From contig USKL01000032.1 of NCBI GenBank assembly GCA_900555225.1, forward strand, positions 1 through 10,813: a stretch of 10,813 nt of DNA. The letters are read 5' to 3'. Positions within the stretch are counted from its first letter, which is position 1. Each line of letters opens with the position of its first letter. The translations under genes and the position numbers were made by a program. The DNA comes from an uncultured Collinsella sp. Lineage in GTDB: Bacteria > Actinomycetota > Coriobacteriia > Coriobacteriales > Coriobacteriaceae. Below the pieces are notes generated by a model. That model did no database searches and was not told the DNA's origin. It worked only from the letters and a program-made list of their open reading frames with translations. Positions 8 through 5,869 of this stretch are shown here, piece by piece.

Positions 8-835
8 CTATTCGCCGAGCTTGGGGTGCAGCAGCGACGGCGCAGCGCCGAGCAGCATCTTGGTGTAGGGGTCCTGGGGATGCTGGAAGACCTGCTTGGC
101 CTCGCCCTGCTCGACGATCTTGCCGCCATTCATAACGATGATGTCGTCAGAGATATAGCGGACCGTCTGGATGTCATGGCTGATGAACACCATGGCCAGG
201 CCGAGCTCCTTCTTAAGGTCGGTCAGCAGGTTCAGAATCTGCGCGCGGACCGAAACGTCCAGAGCCGAGGTGGGCTCGTCGGCGATGATGGCATCGGGGT
301 TCAGCGACAGGGCACGGGCAATTGCGACGCGCTGGCGCTGGCCGCCCGAAAGCTGACCGGGAAGAACCTCGGCGGCGGAGCTGGGCAGACCGGTGAGCTC
401 CAGGAGCTCTTTGACGCGCTTCTCCTGCTCGGCCTCGGTACCCAGGTTGTGGACGCGCATGGGGTCGAGCAGTTGCTCGCGAACGACCATGCGGGGGTTG
501 AGCGCCGTGGCCGGGTTTTGAAACACGACCGAGATGACGCGACCCATGTGGCGACGGTCCTCGGCGGTCCGTTTGGTAACGTCCTTGCCCTTAAAGTAGA
601 CCTTGCCGCTCGTGGGGGCCTGCAGGCCGCACATGACGTTGGCGGTGGTGGACTTACCGCAACCGGACTCGCCGACGATGCCGATCGTCTGACCGGGCAT
701 GAGCTTAATCGTTACACCCTGGACGGCGTGAACCAGGTTGGGGTGCAGAATCGAGCCGGTACGGGTCCTAAAGGTGACGTGGACGTCATCAAGGAAGATG
801 ATCGGCTCGACGCCGTTGACTGCGGTCTCGCTCAT
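8..835 (-). CDS. Peptide-type ABC transporter ATPase (OppF/DppF-like)
   Basis: This is the second nucleotide-binding subunit of the peptide-type importer encoded just upstream; it should pair with the ATPase half of the neighbouring fusion protein on the inner face of the membrane. The 275-residue protein has all ABC motifs: Walker A GESGCGKST (55-63), Q-loop Gln106 in VVFQNP, signature LSGGQRQRV (162-170), Walker B IIADEP with Glu187, and switch His220 in ISHD. The segment QHPQDPYTKMLL (about 251-262) begins the C-terminal oligopeptide/dipeptide-transporter extension, but the protein ends soon after, so the long tail of OppD-type subunits is absent. The ATG directly follows the TAG of the upstream gene with no spacer, and a strong ribosome binding site lies in that gene's last codons, so translation is probably coupled. 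It ends in TAG seven bases from the window edge. The family is certain; the substrate (peptide, nickel or other) is not. Confidence 0.95.
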   Translation of the reverse strand: MSETAVNGVEPIIFLDDVHVTFRTRTGSILHPNLVHAVQGVTIKLMPGQTIGIVGESGCGKSTTANVMCGLQAPTSGKVYFKGKDVTKRTAEDRRHMGRVISVVFQNPATALNPRMVVREQLLDPMRVHNLGTEAEQEKRVKELLELTGLPSSAAEVLPGQLSGGQRQRVAIARALSLNPDAIIADEPTSALDVSVRAQILNLLTDLKKELGLAMVFISHDIQTVRYISDDIIVMNGGKIVEQGEAKQVFQHPQDPYTKMLLGAAPSLLHPKLGE

Positions 836-2854: not shown

Positions 2855-3811
2855 CTACACCGTCCTGATGCGCGGGTTGATGAGCAGGTAGAGCATGTCA
2901 ACCACGATGTTGATGATGATGAAGGCGAGAGCAACGACGATAACGACGCCCTGAACCAGGTTCGCCTCGTTGCCCTGAACGCCCTGCAGAATCGCAGTGC
3001 CCATGCCGGGGAGGTTGAAGATAACCTCGATGACGACGGCGCCGCCCATGAGGTAACCGATCTTAAGACCGAGGGTGGTGACCGGGGTGATCAGCGCATT
3101 GCGAAGAACGTTGATGCCGACGACGACCTTCTCGGGAACGCCGGCGCCGCGAGCCATACGGACATAATCCTTGTCGAGCTCCTCGACCATGGCGGTACGC
3201 ACGATACGAGTCATCTGGCCCGTCAGCGGAAATGCCAAGGCGATAGCGGGCATGATCATACGTCCCAGATAGCCAACCGGATTCGTGGTGAAGTGAGGCA
3301 GAGCACCCGATGCCGGGAGCACCTTAAGGTAGGAAGAGAACAGCAGGATCAACAGAACGGCAAGCCAGAACGACGGGGTTGCCAAGCCGGCGATGGAAAA
3401 GACGCGGATCACTTGGTCCGGCCATTTGTCGCGATACAGTGCCGCGATGACGCCGAGCAAAAACGAAACGACCGCACCGATGGCAAGACCGATAAAGGTC
3501 AGCTGCATCGTGACGGGCAGGGCCGTGGAGATGCGCTTGGCAACGGAGTTGCGAGCAGCACCATAGGTGCCCATGTCGCCATGGATCAAATCGCCCATAT
3601 AGCGCACGTAGCGCACGGGCCAGGGGTCGTCCAGACCATACTTCTCATGGTACTCGGCAACCGCCTCGGGCGAGGCACCGTCACCCAACGCCGTGTAGGC
3701 GGGGTCGGTCTTGGAGAACGACATAAGGAAGAACACCAGGACGGTGACGCCCAATGCCATGATCGGCAGCGCCACAAGACGCCTTCCAATCAAACGTAGC
3801 AAGTTGTTCAC
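2855..3811 (-). CDS. Peptide-type ABC transporter permease (OppB/DppB-like)
   Basis: This is the first membrane subunit of the importer; with the permease half of the downstream fusion it forms the translocation pore. From the GTG at 3811 it has 318 residues, normal for the family. A hydrophobic segment (about 11-31) is followed by an extracytoplasmic stretch with the family pattern YHEKYGLDDPWPVRYVRY (54-71). Further membrane segments follow, then the EAA-type cytoplasmic loop at about 215-238 (DYVRMARGAGV), and the protein ends NPRIRTV, typical of OppB. The frame stays open upstream to a TTG at 3844, but the GTG has a good purine-rich ribosome binding site at the right distance and produces the usual N-terminus, so I prefer it. 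Codon 5 is CTA, a codon otherwise missing from this and the next two genes. It lies 157 nt after the binding-protein gene and 3 nt before the fusion gene. Confidence 0.93.
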   Translation of the reverse strand: MNNLLRLIGRRLVALPIMALGVTVLVFFLMSFSKTDPAYTALGDGASPEAVAEYHEKYGLDDPWPVRYVRYMGDLIHGDMGTYGAARNSVAKRISTALPVTMQLTFIGLAIGAVVSFLLGVIAALYRDKWPDQVIRVFSIAGLATPSFWLAVLLILLFSSYLKVLPASGALPHFTTNPVGYLGRMIMPAIALAFPLTGQMTRIVRTAMVEELDKDYVRMARGAGVPEKVVVGINVLRNALITPVTTLGLKIGYLMGGAVVIEVIFNLPGMGTAILQGVQGNEANLVQGVVIVVALAFIIINIVVDMLYLLINPRIRTV

Positions 3812-3816
3812 GTTCT

Positions 3817-3824
3817 CTCCCCTT
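3817..3824 (-). promoter_or_regulatory. Ribosome binding site deciding the OppB-like GTG start
   Basis: AAGGGGAG on the minus strand ends 5 nt before the GTG at 3811. The alternative TTG at 3844 has no comparable motif, so this site favours the shorter 318-residue product. Confidence 0.75.
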
Positions 3825-3851
3825 TCTTTTGTCGGTAGGACCAACTGGTAT

Positions 3852-3869
3852 ATGAGTACGGGTACTCAT
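3852..3869 (-). repeat. Short perfect inverted repeat upstream of the OppB-like gene
   Basis: ATGAGTAC (3852-3859) and GTACTCAT (3862-3869) are perfect 8-bp arms around two bases. It lies about 40 nt before the GTG start and 3 nt from the larger stem-loop at 3873-3906. It could be a second RNA hairpin or a protein-binding palindrome; nothing in the sequence decides between these. Confidence 0.6.
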
Positions 3870-3872
3870 TAC

Positions 3873-3906
3873 AAGACCCGAGCGACATCGTTGCCGCCCG
3901 GGTCTT
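3873..3906 (-). terminator. Stem-loop between binding-protein and permease genes (attenuator or mRNA-stabilising hairpin)
   Basis: Arms AAGACCCG (3873-3880) and CGGGTCTT (3899-3906) pair perfectly. In the minus-strand transcript the stem continues through a G-U pair (3898/3881) and GCG/CGC to give 12 bp with a 10-nt loop. On the plus strand the same position is an A-C mismatch, so the fold suits the minus transcript better. The following bases (GTAATG) are not a U-tract, so full termination is unlikely. Partial termination or protection of the binding-protein mRNA from 3' decay, as in other transporter operons with an abundant binding protein, is the likelier role. Confidence 0.6.
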
Positions 3907-3968
3907 TGTTTCAACTATGAGGATACGGCCCCAATGACCGACATCCTGCATACAGACTCAAGCGAGTC

Positions 3969-5582
3969 TTACGCCTTGACGGTCGCAACGCCCCTGAAGG
4001 ACATGCTCGTCGTGCCGATGCCCTTGAAGCCATCGAGGGCCTCGCCGTTGGGCGCAGTGGACGGATCGTCCCAGGAAGCGGAGACGGTCTTGACGTGGAC
4101 AACGGGGTACAGAACAGCGTTGTCGGCGATGATGTCGAAGCACTCGTTCCACTTCTTCTGCTGCTCGTCGCCCTCGGCGGCAAGAGCCTCGTCCATGAGA
4201 CCGTGGAGCTTCTCCCACTCAGCGGACTCCTTCCACGGGCAACGGGTCTGCATCCAGACGTTGTCGCCGTACCACCAGTTGAGCAGCAGGTCGGGGTCAG
4301 CGCCGAAGCAGGACGGATCGCCAGGGGCAAGGAGGATATCGTAGGCCTCGCCGCCGTCGATGGCAGCGTAGGTGGCCGGCGAGGTATCGGTCTGGATGGT
4401 CACCTCGAAGCCGAGAGCGTCGAGGTCGTTCTTGACCTGGGCGGCCATGCCCTTAATCTGCTCGTTGTCGGTGGTGCGCAGGGTGATGGCACCCGGGGTG
4501 ATGCCGGACTCCTCGATGAGCTTCTTGGCCTTCTTGGCGTCGGTCTTGTACACCGTGGAAGCCTCATGATAGTTGGTGAAGCTCTTGGGCAGGTAGCAGC
4601 TGGCAGCGGTGGCAAGGCCGGCGAAGGTGTTGGTGATCATCTTCTCGGTGTCGAGCGCGTACATGACGGCCTGACGGACCTTGACGTTGTTCCAAGGCTC
4701 CTTGGCGACGTTGAACATGATGAAGCGGGTGCCGAAGCCCTGGACGTTGTCGATCTTGCAGCCAGCGCTCTCGAGCTGGTCGACGGCGTCAGCGGTGACG
4801 AGCTCCATAACGAGCGTGGAGCCTTCCTGCTGGGCGGTAACGCGAGCGGTGGGGTCGGTCAGGATGCTGTACTGGATCTTCTTATCCTCGGCAGCATACT
4901 CACCGTTGTACTCGGGGTTGGGAACCAGGGTGATCTCGGTATCGGAGATAGAGTCGTACATCCAGGGGCCGGAACCGATCGGCTGCTTGGCGCGATCCTC
5001 CTCGGACTGAGTAGCCGGGGTAACACGGATGATGGCCAGACGATCCTTGAGCAGGGAGAAGTTGGGGACCTTGGTCTTGACCGTTACAGTGCTGGCATCC
5101 TTGGCCTCGATGGACTCGAAGGGCTGGAAGAACGGAGCATAGGTAGCGGAAGCGGCGCAAGCGGTGTAGGAGGCAACGACATCGTCAGCGGTGACCTCGG
5201 TGCCATCGGAGAACTTGGCGCCCTTGCGGATGGTGACCTCGAAGGTAGTGTCGTCCACGGACTTGGGATCGTCGGTGGCGAGCTCGTTGAAGGTGCTGTA
5301 GTCGTGGTAATCGATGCCGTAGAGGCCCTCGACGACGTGCCAGTTAGCACCCAGGCCCACAGCGGAGCCGGTGCTGGCGGGATCGAAGCTGGACGGAGCG
5401 TAAGCGGAACCAGCGGTGATCACGCCGCCGCCACGGTTGGCGGAATCGGTGGAGCCGGAAGCGGAACCCTCGTCGCTAGAGCTGCCACCGCAGCCAGTGA
5501 GACCAAGCCCTGCGACAGCAGCGACGCTGCCGGTGAGGCCGAGGAACGAACGCCTGGACATACCCTTGTTGATGATGGCCAT
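3969..5582 (-). CDS. Substrate-binding lipoprotein of peptide-type ABC importer (SBP family 5, OppA/DppA-like)
   Basis: This is the extracytoplasmic ligand-capture subunit of the importer, first gene of the operon. From the ATG at 5582 it has 537 residues, normal for the family. The N-terminus is a Tat-type signal: SRRSFLG (9-15) with twin arginines 10-11, a hydrophobic core, and lipobox LTGC with Cys31 as the expected lipidated residue. A Gly/Ser/Asp-rich tether (about 32-53) follows, then the mature domain. KGAKFSDGTEVTADDVVAS (120-138) is the SBP_bac_5 hallmark. The open frame reaches a TTG at 5597, but AGGAG stands 5 nt before the ATG, so I use the ATG. It ends in TAA. A 157-nt spacer with two hairpins separates it from the permease gene. 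Peptide binding is the default guess for the family; other ligands such as nickel or opines cannot be excluded. Confidence 0.93.
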   Translation of the reverse strand: MAIINKGMSRRSFLGLTGSVAAVAGLGLTGCGGSSSDEGSASGSTDSANRGGGVITAGSAYAPSSFDPASTGSAVGLGANWHVVEGLYGIDYHDYSTFNELATDDPKSVDDTTFEVTIRKGAKFSDGTEVTADDVVASYTACAASATYAPFFQPFESIEAKDASTVTVKTKVPNFSLLKDRLAIIRVTPATQSEEDRAKQPIGSGPWMYDSISDTEITLVPNPEYNGEYAAEDKKIQYSILTDPTARVTAQQEGSTLVMELVTADAVDQLESAGCKIDNVQGFGTRFIMFNVAKEPWNNVKVRQAVMYALDTEKMITNTFAGLATAASCYLPKSFTNYHEASTVYKTDAKKAKKLIEESGITPGAITLRTTDNEQIKGMAAQVKNDLDALGFEVTIQTDTSPATYAAIDGGEAYDILLAPGDPSCFGADPDLLLNWWYGDNVWMQTRCPWKESAEWEKLHGLMDEALAAEGDEQQKKWNECFDIIADNAVLYPVVHVKTVSASWDDPSTAPNGEALDGFKGIGTTSMSFRGVATVKA

Positions 5583-5587
5583 GTCTT

Positions 5588-5592
5588 CTCCT
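5588..5592 (-). promoter_or_regulatory. Ribosome binding site of the binding-protein gene
   Basis: AGGAG on the minus strand lies 5 nt before the ATG at 5582 and supports that start over the TTG at 5597, which would overlap the site. Confidence 0.8.
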
Positions 5593-5612
5593 ATCAATAG
5601 AGAATCTTACTC

Positions 5613-5633
5613 GGGAGCACCTAGACGTGCCCC
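5613..5633 (-). other. Small hairpin in the leader of the transporter operon
   Basis: In the minus transcript GGG-GCAC pairs with GTGC-(T)-CCC around a 6-nt loop (GTCTAG), giving 7 bp with one bulged base. It sits about 20 nt upstream of the ribosome binding site, close enough to influence initiation but not covering it. It is short and may have no function. Confidence 0.4.
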
Positions 5634-5651
5634 CGCGCAACTTGCGGACGA

Positions 5652-5679
5652 TATATACCTTACCTACCGACGAACCCAA
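5652..5679 (-). promoter_or_regulatory. Candidate promoter of the transporter operon
   Basis: On the minus strand TTGGGT (5674-5679) and TATATA (5652-5657) are separated by 16 nt, giving an expected start near 5645 and a leader of about 60 nt. The -10 is fair and the -35 weak. A competing candidate further upstream is TTGTCA (5752-5757), 17 nt, TAGTAA (5729-5734); it overlaps the palindromes and would put that structure partly in the promoter. I cannot choose between them from sequence. Confidence 0.35.
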
Positions 5680-5700
5680 CTGAGGTGCCGCGCTCGGCGA

Positions 5701-5783
5701 CCGATACATACATACGCTTGAACGGTATTTACTACCGTTCACCGAATTCATTGACAAATGATTCGCCAGACAGTATGTATCGG
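5701..5783 (-). repeat. Symmetrical cluster of three inverted repeats; candidate three-way-junction RNA or compound operator
   Basis: Outer arms CCGATACATAC (5701-5711) and GTATGTATCGG (5773-5783) are perfect 11-bp complements. Between them lie two hairpin-forming units of 23 bp each. The unit at 5719-5741 has 9-bp perfect arms TGAACGGTA / TACCGTTCA around 5 bases. The unit at 5743-5765 has arms CGAATTCATT / AATGATTCG around GACA, 9 bp with one bulge. Linkers are 7 bp, 1 bp and 7 bp, so the arrangement is symmetrical about 5742. Folded, it makes a closing stem with two hairpins, on either strand. It lies 119 bp upstream of the binding-protein start. I do not recognise it as a known riboswitch, RNA gene or insertion sequence. 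The repeats are directly visible; any function is inference. Confidence 0.7.
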
Positions 5784-5823
5784 CGAGGTGAGATATCAGT
5801 CTTCGTCAACCCGCAGGATAGCA

Positions 5824-5869
5824 GGGTTTTCGCTTGGGTTAGTCAAACGTTTTAGCGTTAATAAAACCC
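5824..5869 (-). other. Weak inverted repeat downstream of uvrC
   Basis: GGGTTTT (5824-5830) and AAAACCC (5863-5869) are 7-bp complements 32 nt apart. A second AACCC/GGGTT pairing at 5808-5828 competes with it. Neither is followed by a clear U-tract in the uvrC direction, so this is not a convincing intrinsic terminator, though it is the best structure after the uvrC stop. The rest of 5784-5946 is AT-richer, non-coding, and shows nothing else I can support. Confidence 0.3.

Follow-up and report, generated by a model that had tools for sequence, protein, structure and literature searches.

A conserved multi-site array, probably an operator, underlies a symmetrical inverted-repeat element upstream of a likely sialic-acid importer operon in Collinsella

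The described systems that come closest to the locus considered here are of three kinds. Among sialic-acid genes, the GntR-type NanR operator of Escherichia coli is described as tandem GGTATA repeats standing as a compound operator before the genes it serves (PMC3658417), and the nan genes of Bifidobacterium are placed under NanR (PMC4746261). Among transporters, SatABCD is represented by the systems of Haemophilus ducreyi and B. breve, with the structure 5z99 being given as that of SatA, which binds sialic acid in H. ducreyi (PMC11364026, PMC10017367). Finally, there are the metabolite riboswitches built upon a three-way junction. How does the Collinsella locus compare with these? It shares with the NanR operators what is probably a compound operator ahead of probable sialic-acid genes, and with the Sat systems a binding protein whose sequence is closest to SatA structures, followed by nan-like genes. 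It resembles the riboswitches in having a predicted three-way fold upstream of an importer, but differs from them in that this fold is not conserved in relatives and has no Rfam match.

The window, the whole stretch of 10,813 nucleotides that was analysed, belongs to the Collinsella aerofaciens group, as the best 19 loci in the genome collection share its binding-protein gene at 97-100% identity. On the minus strand the order of the recognised genes is uvrA (in part), ybaK, murJ, uvrC, a gap of 364 nt and then four importer genes (Table 1). For the binding protein, the best structural matches are 5za4, 5z99 and 5yyb, with E values of about 1e-92 as against 1.5e-28 for the next, such that the nutrient importer proposed in the sequence-only reading can be specified as SatABCD-like, SatA being the closest of the solved structures; the likely cargo is sialic acid (Neu5Ac). 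The continuation of the operon was followed in G016, where the gap DNA is identical to that of the window over the 278 bases compared. Behind the importer genes there (locus L192) come a pair of AXE1-family esterases, members of the DHDPS and ROK families, which are NanA-like and NanK-like, respectively, and NanE, and then RapZ and WhiA. The combination of a SatA-like binding protein with nan-like genes after the importer makes this most likely, by homology, an operon for the uptake and breakdown of sialic acid (sat/nan).

Table 1. Coordinates of the features in the window and its operon, with the observation on which each rests
Feature	Position	Strand	Remark
Second ATPase	8..835	-	
Fused permease and ATPase, 671 aa	836..2851	-	
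Importer permease	2855..3811	-	
SatA-like solute-binding protein	3969..5582	-	
Hairpin a little upstream of the ribosome-binding site, possibly a leader structure	5612..5635	-	
Tentative promoter: TTGGGT (5679-5674), 16 nt, TATATA (5657-5652)	5652..5679	-	by eye and alignment
Extent of the other-species profile match	5659..5756	-	28.3 bits
Site C, TCGGTCGCCGAG in the window	5693..5704	-	degenerate form of CCGTTCRCCGA
Outer arm adjoining site C	5701..5711	-	no counterpart seen in the relatives aligned
Site B, TACCGTTCA	5719..5727	-	CCG invariant in 12/12 rows
Site A, TCGGTGAACGGTA	5733..5745	-	aligned in relatives, and profile match
Upstream hairpin unit, one bulge, GTCAA box in its loop	5743..5765	-	
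GTCAA box, in the loop of the upstream unit	5751..5755	-	GTCAA columns invariant in 12/12 rows
Outer arm, uvrC side	5773..5783	-	no counterpart seen in the relatives aligned

The element that drew attention to the gap, 5701-5783, was described in the sequence-only reading as a pair of perfect outer arms enclosing two 23-bp hairpin units, and that geometry stands. The element lies within a gap of the length given, its 11-nt outer arms are fully complementary in the window and the linkers of 7, 1 and 7 nt are arranged about 5742. The downstream unit, 5719-5741, is a perfect hairpin of 9 bp with a 5-nt loop (TGAACGGTA/TACCGTTCA, plus strand 5719-5727 / 5733-5741); the upstream unit carries one bulged base and is thus not a perfect palindrome. 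When the 364-nt gap was shuffled 400 times with its dinucleotides preserved, a hairpin arm of at least 9 (loop 3-8) arose twice, as did an outer arm of at least 11 (40-80 nt apart), and the two together never arose, although these thresholds were chosen after the element had been seen. The earlier view that such regularity exceeds chance therefore holds for the two arm types taken together, the test having scored arm lengths and distances alone. Within the group the outer arms form all 11 bp in 7 of the 20 aligned sequences, the window included, and the other 13 have a T at the outermost arm base, leaving 10 bp and a possible U.G on the minus strand; in one sequence (L016) the upstream unit is one pair short and has an alternative fold.

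The complete symmetry is seen only in the C. aerofaciens group and is therefore not the conserved unit. What divergent Coriobacteriaceae retain at the same position is an array of some 60-65 bp, composed of a GTCAA box and sites A, B and C, which is found upstream of the orthologous gene in other Collinsella, in Enorma and in relatives (60-67% protein identity for the rows used). GTCAA comes first and is separated by about 10-13 nt from the AACGG of site A, which in turn stands some 8-9 nt (further in L035) from the CCG of site B; site C comes roughly two helical turns after that. These spacings were counted by eye, and neither those inside the array nor that from site C to the tentative -10 are rigid. 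The perfect downstream hairpin is site A facing site B, and site C overlaps the end of an outer arm with most of its length outside 5701-5783. A profile of ten relatives, from which the window and its group were left out, and whose L044 row, trimmed at an earlier GTCAAC, is misaligned in part, has a single significant match in the window, 5756-5659 on the minus strand, with 28.3 bits in comparison to 8.6 bits for the best of 81 matches reported in 200 shuffled windows. A weak second match of 4.1 bits on the plus strand (5716-5745) reflects a resemblance between the complement of site A and site C. The end of site C lies 96-110 nt before the importer start codon in 13 loci; L035 and L152 yielded no start codon and are not counted.

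Much of the element therefore coincides with a conserved array that stands, across the family, at a near-constant distance from the importer start, which supports the compound operator that had been put forward as one of two possibilities. That the element overlies a multi-site transcription-factor operator of the sat/nan operon is given a probability of roughly 0.77. A transcription factor is predicted to bind the related half-sites A, B and C, with A and B facing each other as a 23-bp palindrome that would be bound as an inverted pair, and with C, which points in the same direction as B, serving as a third site about two helical turns further on; the GTCAA box would lie upstream of these. 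Binding, for which sialic acid is the putative signal, would set the level of transcription from a promoter just downstream. With a start assumed near 5645, site C would fall at about -48 to -59, site B at -74 to -82 and site A at -88 to -100, and as the sites stand upstream of the tentative promoter this layout suggests activation or looping rather than simple blocking. If that promoter is right the element would not be transcribed. The two inverted 11-bp arms found in the group, 72 bp apart, complete the symmetry and could be extra sites, or else idle.

The promoter itself remains tentative, as a consensus promoter scan returned no promoter-like site on either strand. A promoter on the plus strand starting from TTGACA (5751-5756) was considered and dropped, the hexamer 17 nt further on being TATGTA and the scan having listed none. 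A divergent gene was likewise set aside: the three ORFs lying immediately upstream on the reverse strand in L041, L044 and L033 have no Pfam match, uvrC lies there on the opposite strand, and they are taken as antisense to it. A regulator gene was looked for between the importer and rapZ, in G016 and L001 (the first AXE1-family esterase being scanned at the equivalent place of L001), and among part of the genes of L193 and L194, and none was found among the genes scanned. The half-site of the array is TCGGTGAACGGTA-like, and where the NanR operator of E. coli has tandem repeats the uvrC-importer gap has a single GGTATA, at 5659-5654, which overlaps the tentative -10. No description of the array motif was found among the papers listed, as judged from their titles and abstracts. 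It may be that sialic-acid uptake in Coriobacteriia is under an undescribed regulator whose half-site, TCGGTGAACGGTA, is unlike that of E. coli NanR, and that the group arm 72 bp away forms a DNA-looping switch, but as a whole this extension is unlikely. What the array does provide is a defined regulatory sequence tied to likely sialic-acid use in a common gut commensal, with sites A to C as a precise probe for finding the regulator.

A minimal form of the operator explanation, and one compatible with it, is that the array alone acts, with both outer arms and the upstream-unit stem, as repeats peculiar to the group, being idle or due to chance; the odds on this are a little short of even. In the relatives aligned, no counterpart was seen for the arms or for this stem. 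Among the group sequences, which are very close kin, the two outer arms together vary at 1 of 22 positions and the whole element at 9 of 83, with 1 of 23 in the downstream hairpin, 4 of 23 in the upstream unit and none in the stretch scored for the GTCAA box (5751-5756, 20 sequences), but the rest of the promoter region, 5583-5700, is conserved equally (12 of 118 vary), so that the arms need no special cause for their conservation. Both the element and its flanks vary little by comparison with the third positions of uvrC, of which 138 of 298 vary, and it is thus the region that is constrained, with the fold not singled out. Nor is the array outstanding within the group, since its site C is degenerate and 5583-5857 is about evenly conserved. 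Against the arms being idle stand the rarity of 11-nt outer arms in the shuffled gaps and the single variable arm position, the latter tempered by the closeness of the sequences. The stretch from uvrC to the element, 5784-5857, is conserved like the promoter region, with 7 variable positions out of 74, and more short inverted repeats occur in it.

The second possibility that had been raised, a ligand-sensing leader folding as a three-way junction, would require a promoter upstream of 5783 and a riboswitch-like RNA confined to the C. aerofaciens group. Such a promoter is possible, as 5784-5857 is also conserved, and 5701-5783 does fold as drawn on both strands at -32 kcal/mol, with none of 200 shuffles equally good and z values of -7.47 (plus) and -4.78 (minus). 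Covariation was checked in the group alignment (20 sequences, 10 distinct rows). On the minus strand 99.7% of cells remain paired, and a pair of the upstream unit occurs as A-U, G-U and G-C, both of which favour RNA; against it, the covariation score was reached by 241 of 500 shuffles. Of 29 pairs, three vary on one side and one is broken in one row, and none has changed on both sides relative to its commonest form among the 10 distinct rows; because the other 25 never vary, variation within the group is too low for riboswitch covariation to be decided there. Outside the group the three-way fold is not seen. The consensus fold of 12 divergent rows reaches just -2.05 kcal/mol, and a single pair is altered on both sides, in one sequence. 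Of 13 relatives, 11 do no better than their shuffles (z between -0.99 and +0.61). The other two, L148 and L150, do fold well (z -4.43 and -4.11), which runs counter to the reading preferred here; the shape they form is a different one, a single long hairpin of sites A and C. Rfam returned no match at the gathering threshold, in keeping with the earlier remark that no known RNA family was recognised. A structured leader is thereby left as distinctly improbable, and on these data the locus is a genuine and conserved regulatory region, ordinary in kind, rather than a new RNA structure. It illustrates that behind a striking symmetrical fold found in one species there can stand a conserved operator on which the lineage has superimposed repeats of its own.

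A sequence-only model, R1, was built of 12 rows, including the window and L016, so that the genomes behind the rows match by construction; with these included, 37 of 65 family genomes carry the array at E<=1e-4. In the class it reaches E<=1e-3 in 34 of 296 genomes, of which 32 stand at E<=6e-11; the two genome sets overlap. Beyond the model rows and the C. aerofaciens group, strong or fair matches come from G041, G055, G056 and G059, and G033 also matched but is close to a model row. Across 43 genus genomes the array (E<=1e-4) accompanies the importer protein in 29 of 29 cases and occurs in 2 of the 14 genomes that are without it; in G036, which has the array without the protein, a contig end falls within the array. 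More distant loci carry the pair of sites B and C in 12 of 18 cases, 11 of them 128-131 nt before the start, as compared to a mean of 0.035 loci and a maximum of 1 in shuffles, with the qualification that the pattern was written after the sequences had been inspected and that some loci are near-identical (among them L031/L042, L036/L043 and L040/L045). Two weak array-like matches lie outside the family, at G210:C23:83974-84009 (E 1.2e-4) and G260:C1:894253-894302 (E 6.9e-4).

Could the element instead be part of the 3' end of uvrC, for example its terminator? In every locus examined the array does have uvrC upstream of it, and G041 has a copy (L186:3936-3996) after uvrC with the importer protein not detected in the genome, perhaps as a remnant of a lost operon. 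The distance from the array to the uvrC stop, however, ranges from 41 to 391 nt in 15 loci as against the near-constant distance to the importer start, and for this reason the array belongs to the importer and not to uvrC; its absence at E<=1e-4 from 12 of the 14 genus genomes without the importer also counts against a uvrC element, which is very improbable. A mobile or repeated element of the REP or MITE type, as nested inverted repeats might suggest, is scarcely credible given one strong array copy per genome, in the same place in every locus examined.

The copy counts of the individual parts are in need of some care. Allowing up to 3 mismatches, the 23-bp palindrome has one place each in G001, G002 and G005, that in G005 lying in front of the SatA-like gene (L041), and G003 and G006 have no match; its backwards control also matched, once each in G001, G003 and G006 (3 of the 5 genomes), and therefore at 3 mismatches it is position that carries evidence and not copy number. 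GTATGTATGTATCGG, at up to 2 mismatches, has 11 places in 5 genomes, with both perfect ones being this locus, and a stretch of 221 nt is matched over its full length in G001 and G002, the matches elsewhere being short and weak.

A number of smaller features accompany the locus. In L033, L034, L041 and L044 the array is preceded by palindromes or repeats resembling ACTGGTAT...ATACCAGT, which the window gap is without, and which are perhaps sites of a second regulator, possibly GntR-like. GGTATA occurs five times in the window against 1.43 expected, a number reached by none of 200 shuffles, and one of these (3847-3852) falls within AACTGGTATAT in the gap between the binding protein and permease genes. 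That gap, 3812-3968, contains, as seen by eye, a long G+C-rich inverted repeat, AAGACCCG...CGGGTCTT, as well as ATGAGTAC-GG-GTACTCAT, and may have a part in trimming the mRNA between these genes or in protecting it. Further along the operon, the two adjacent AXE1-family esterases between the importer and the NanA-like gene (L192:4244-6080) are perhaps sialate O-acetylesterases, since E. coli NanS is described as resembling an acetyl xylan esterase (PMC3658417).
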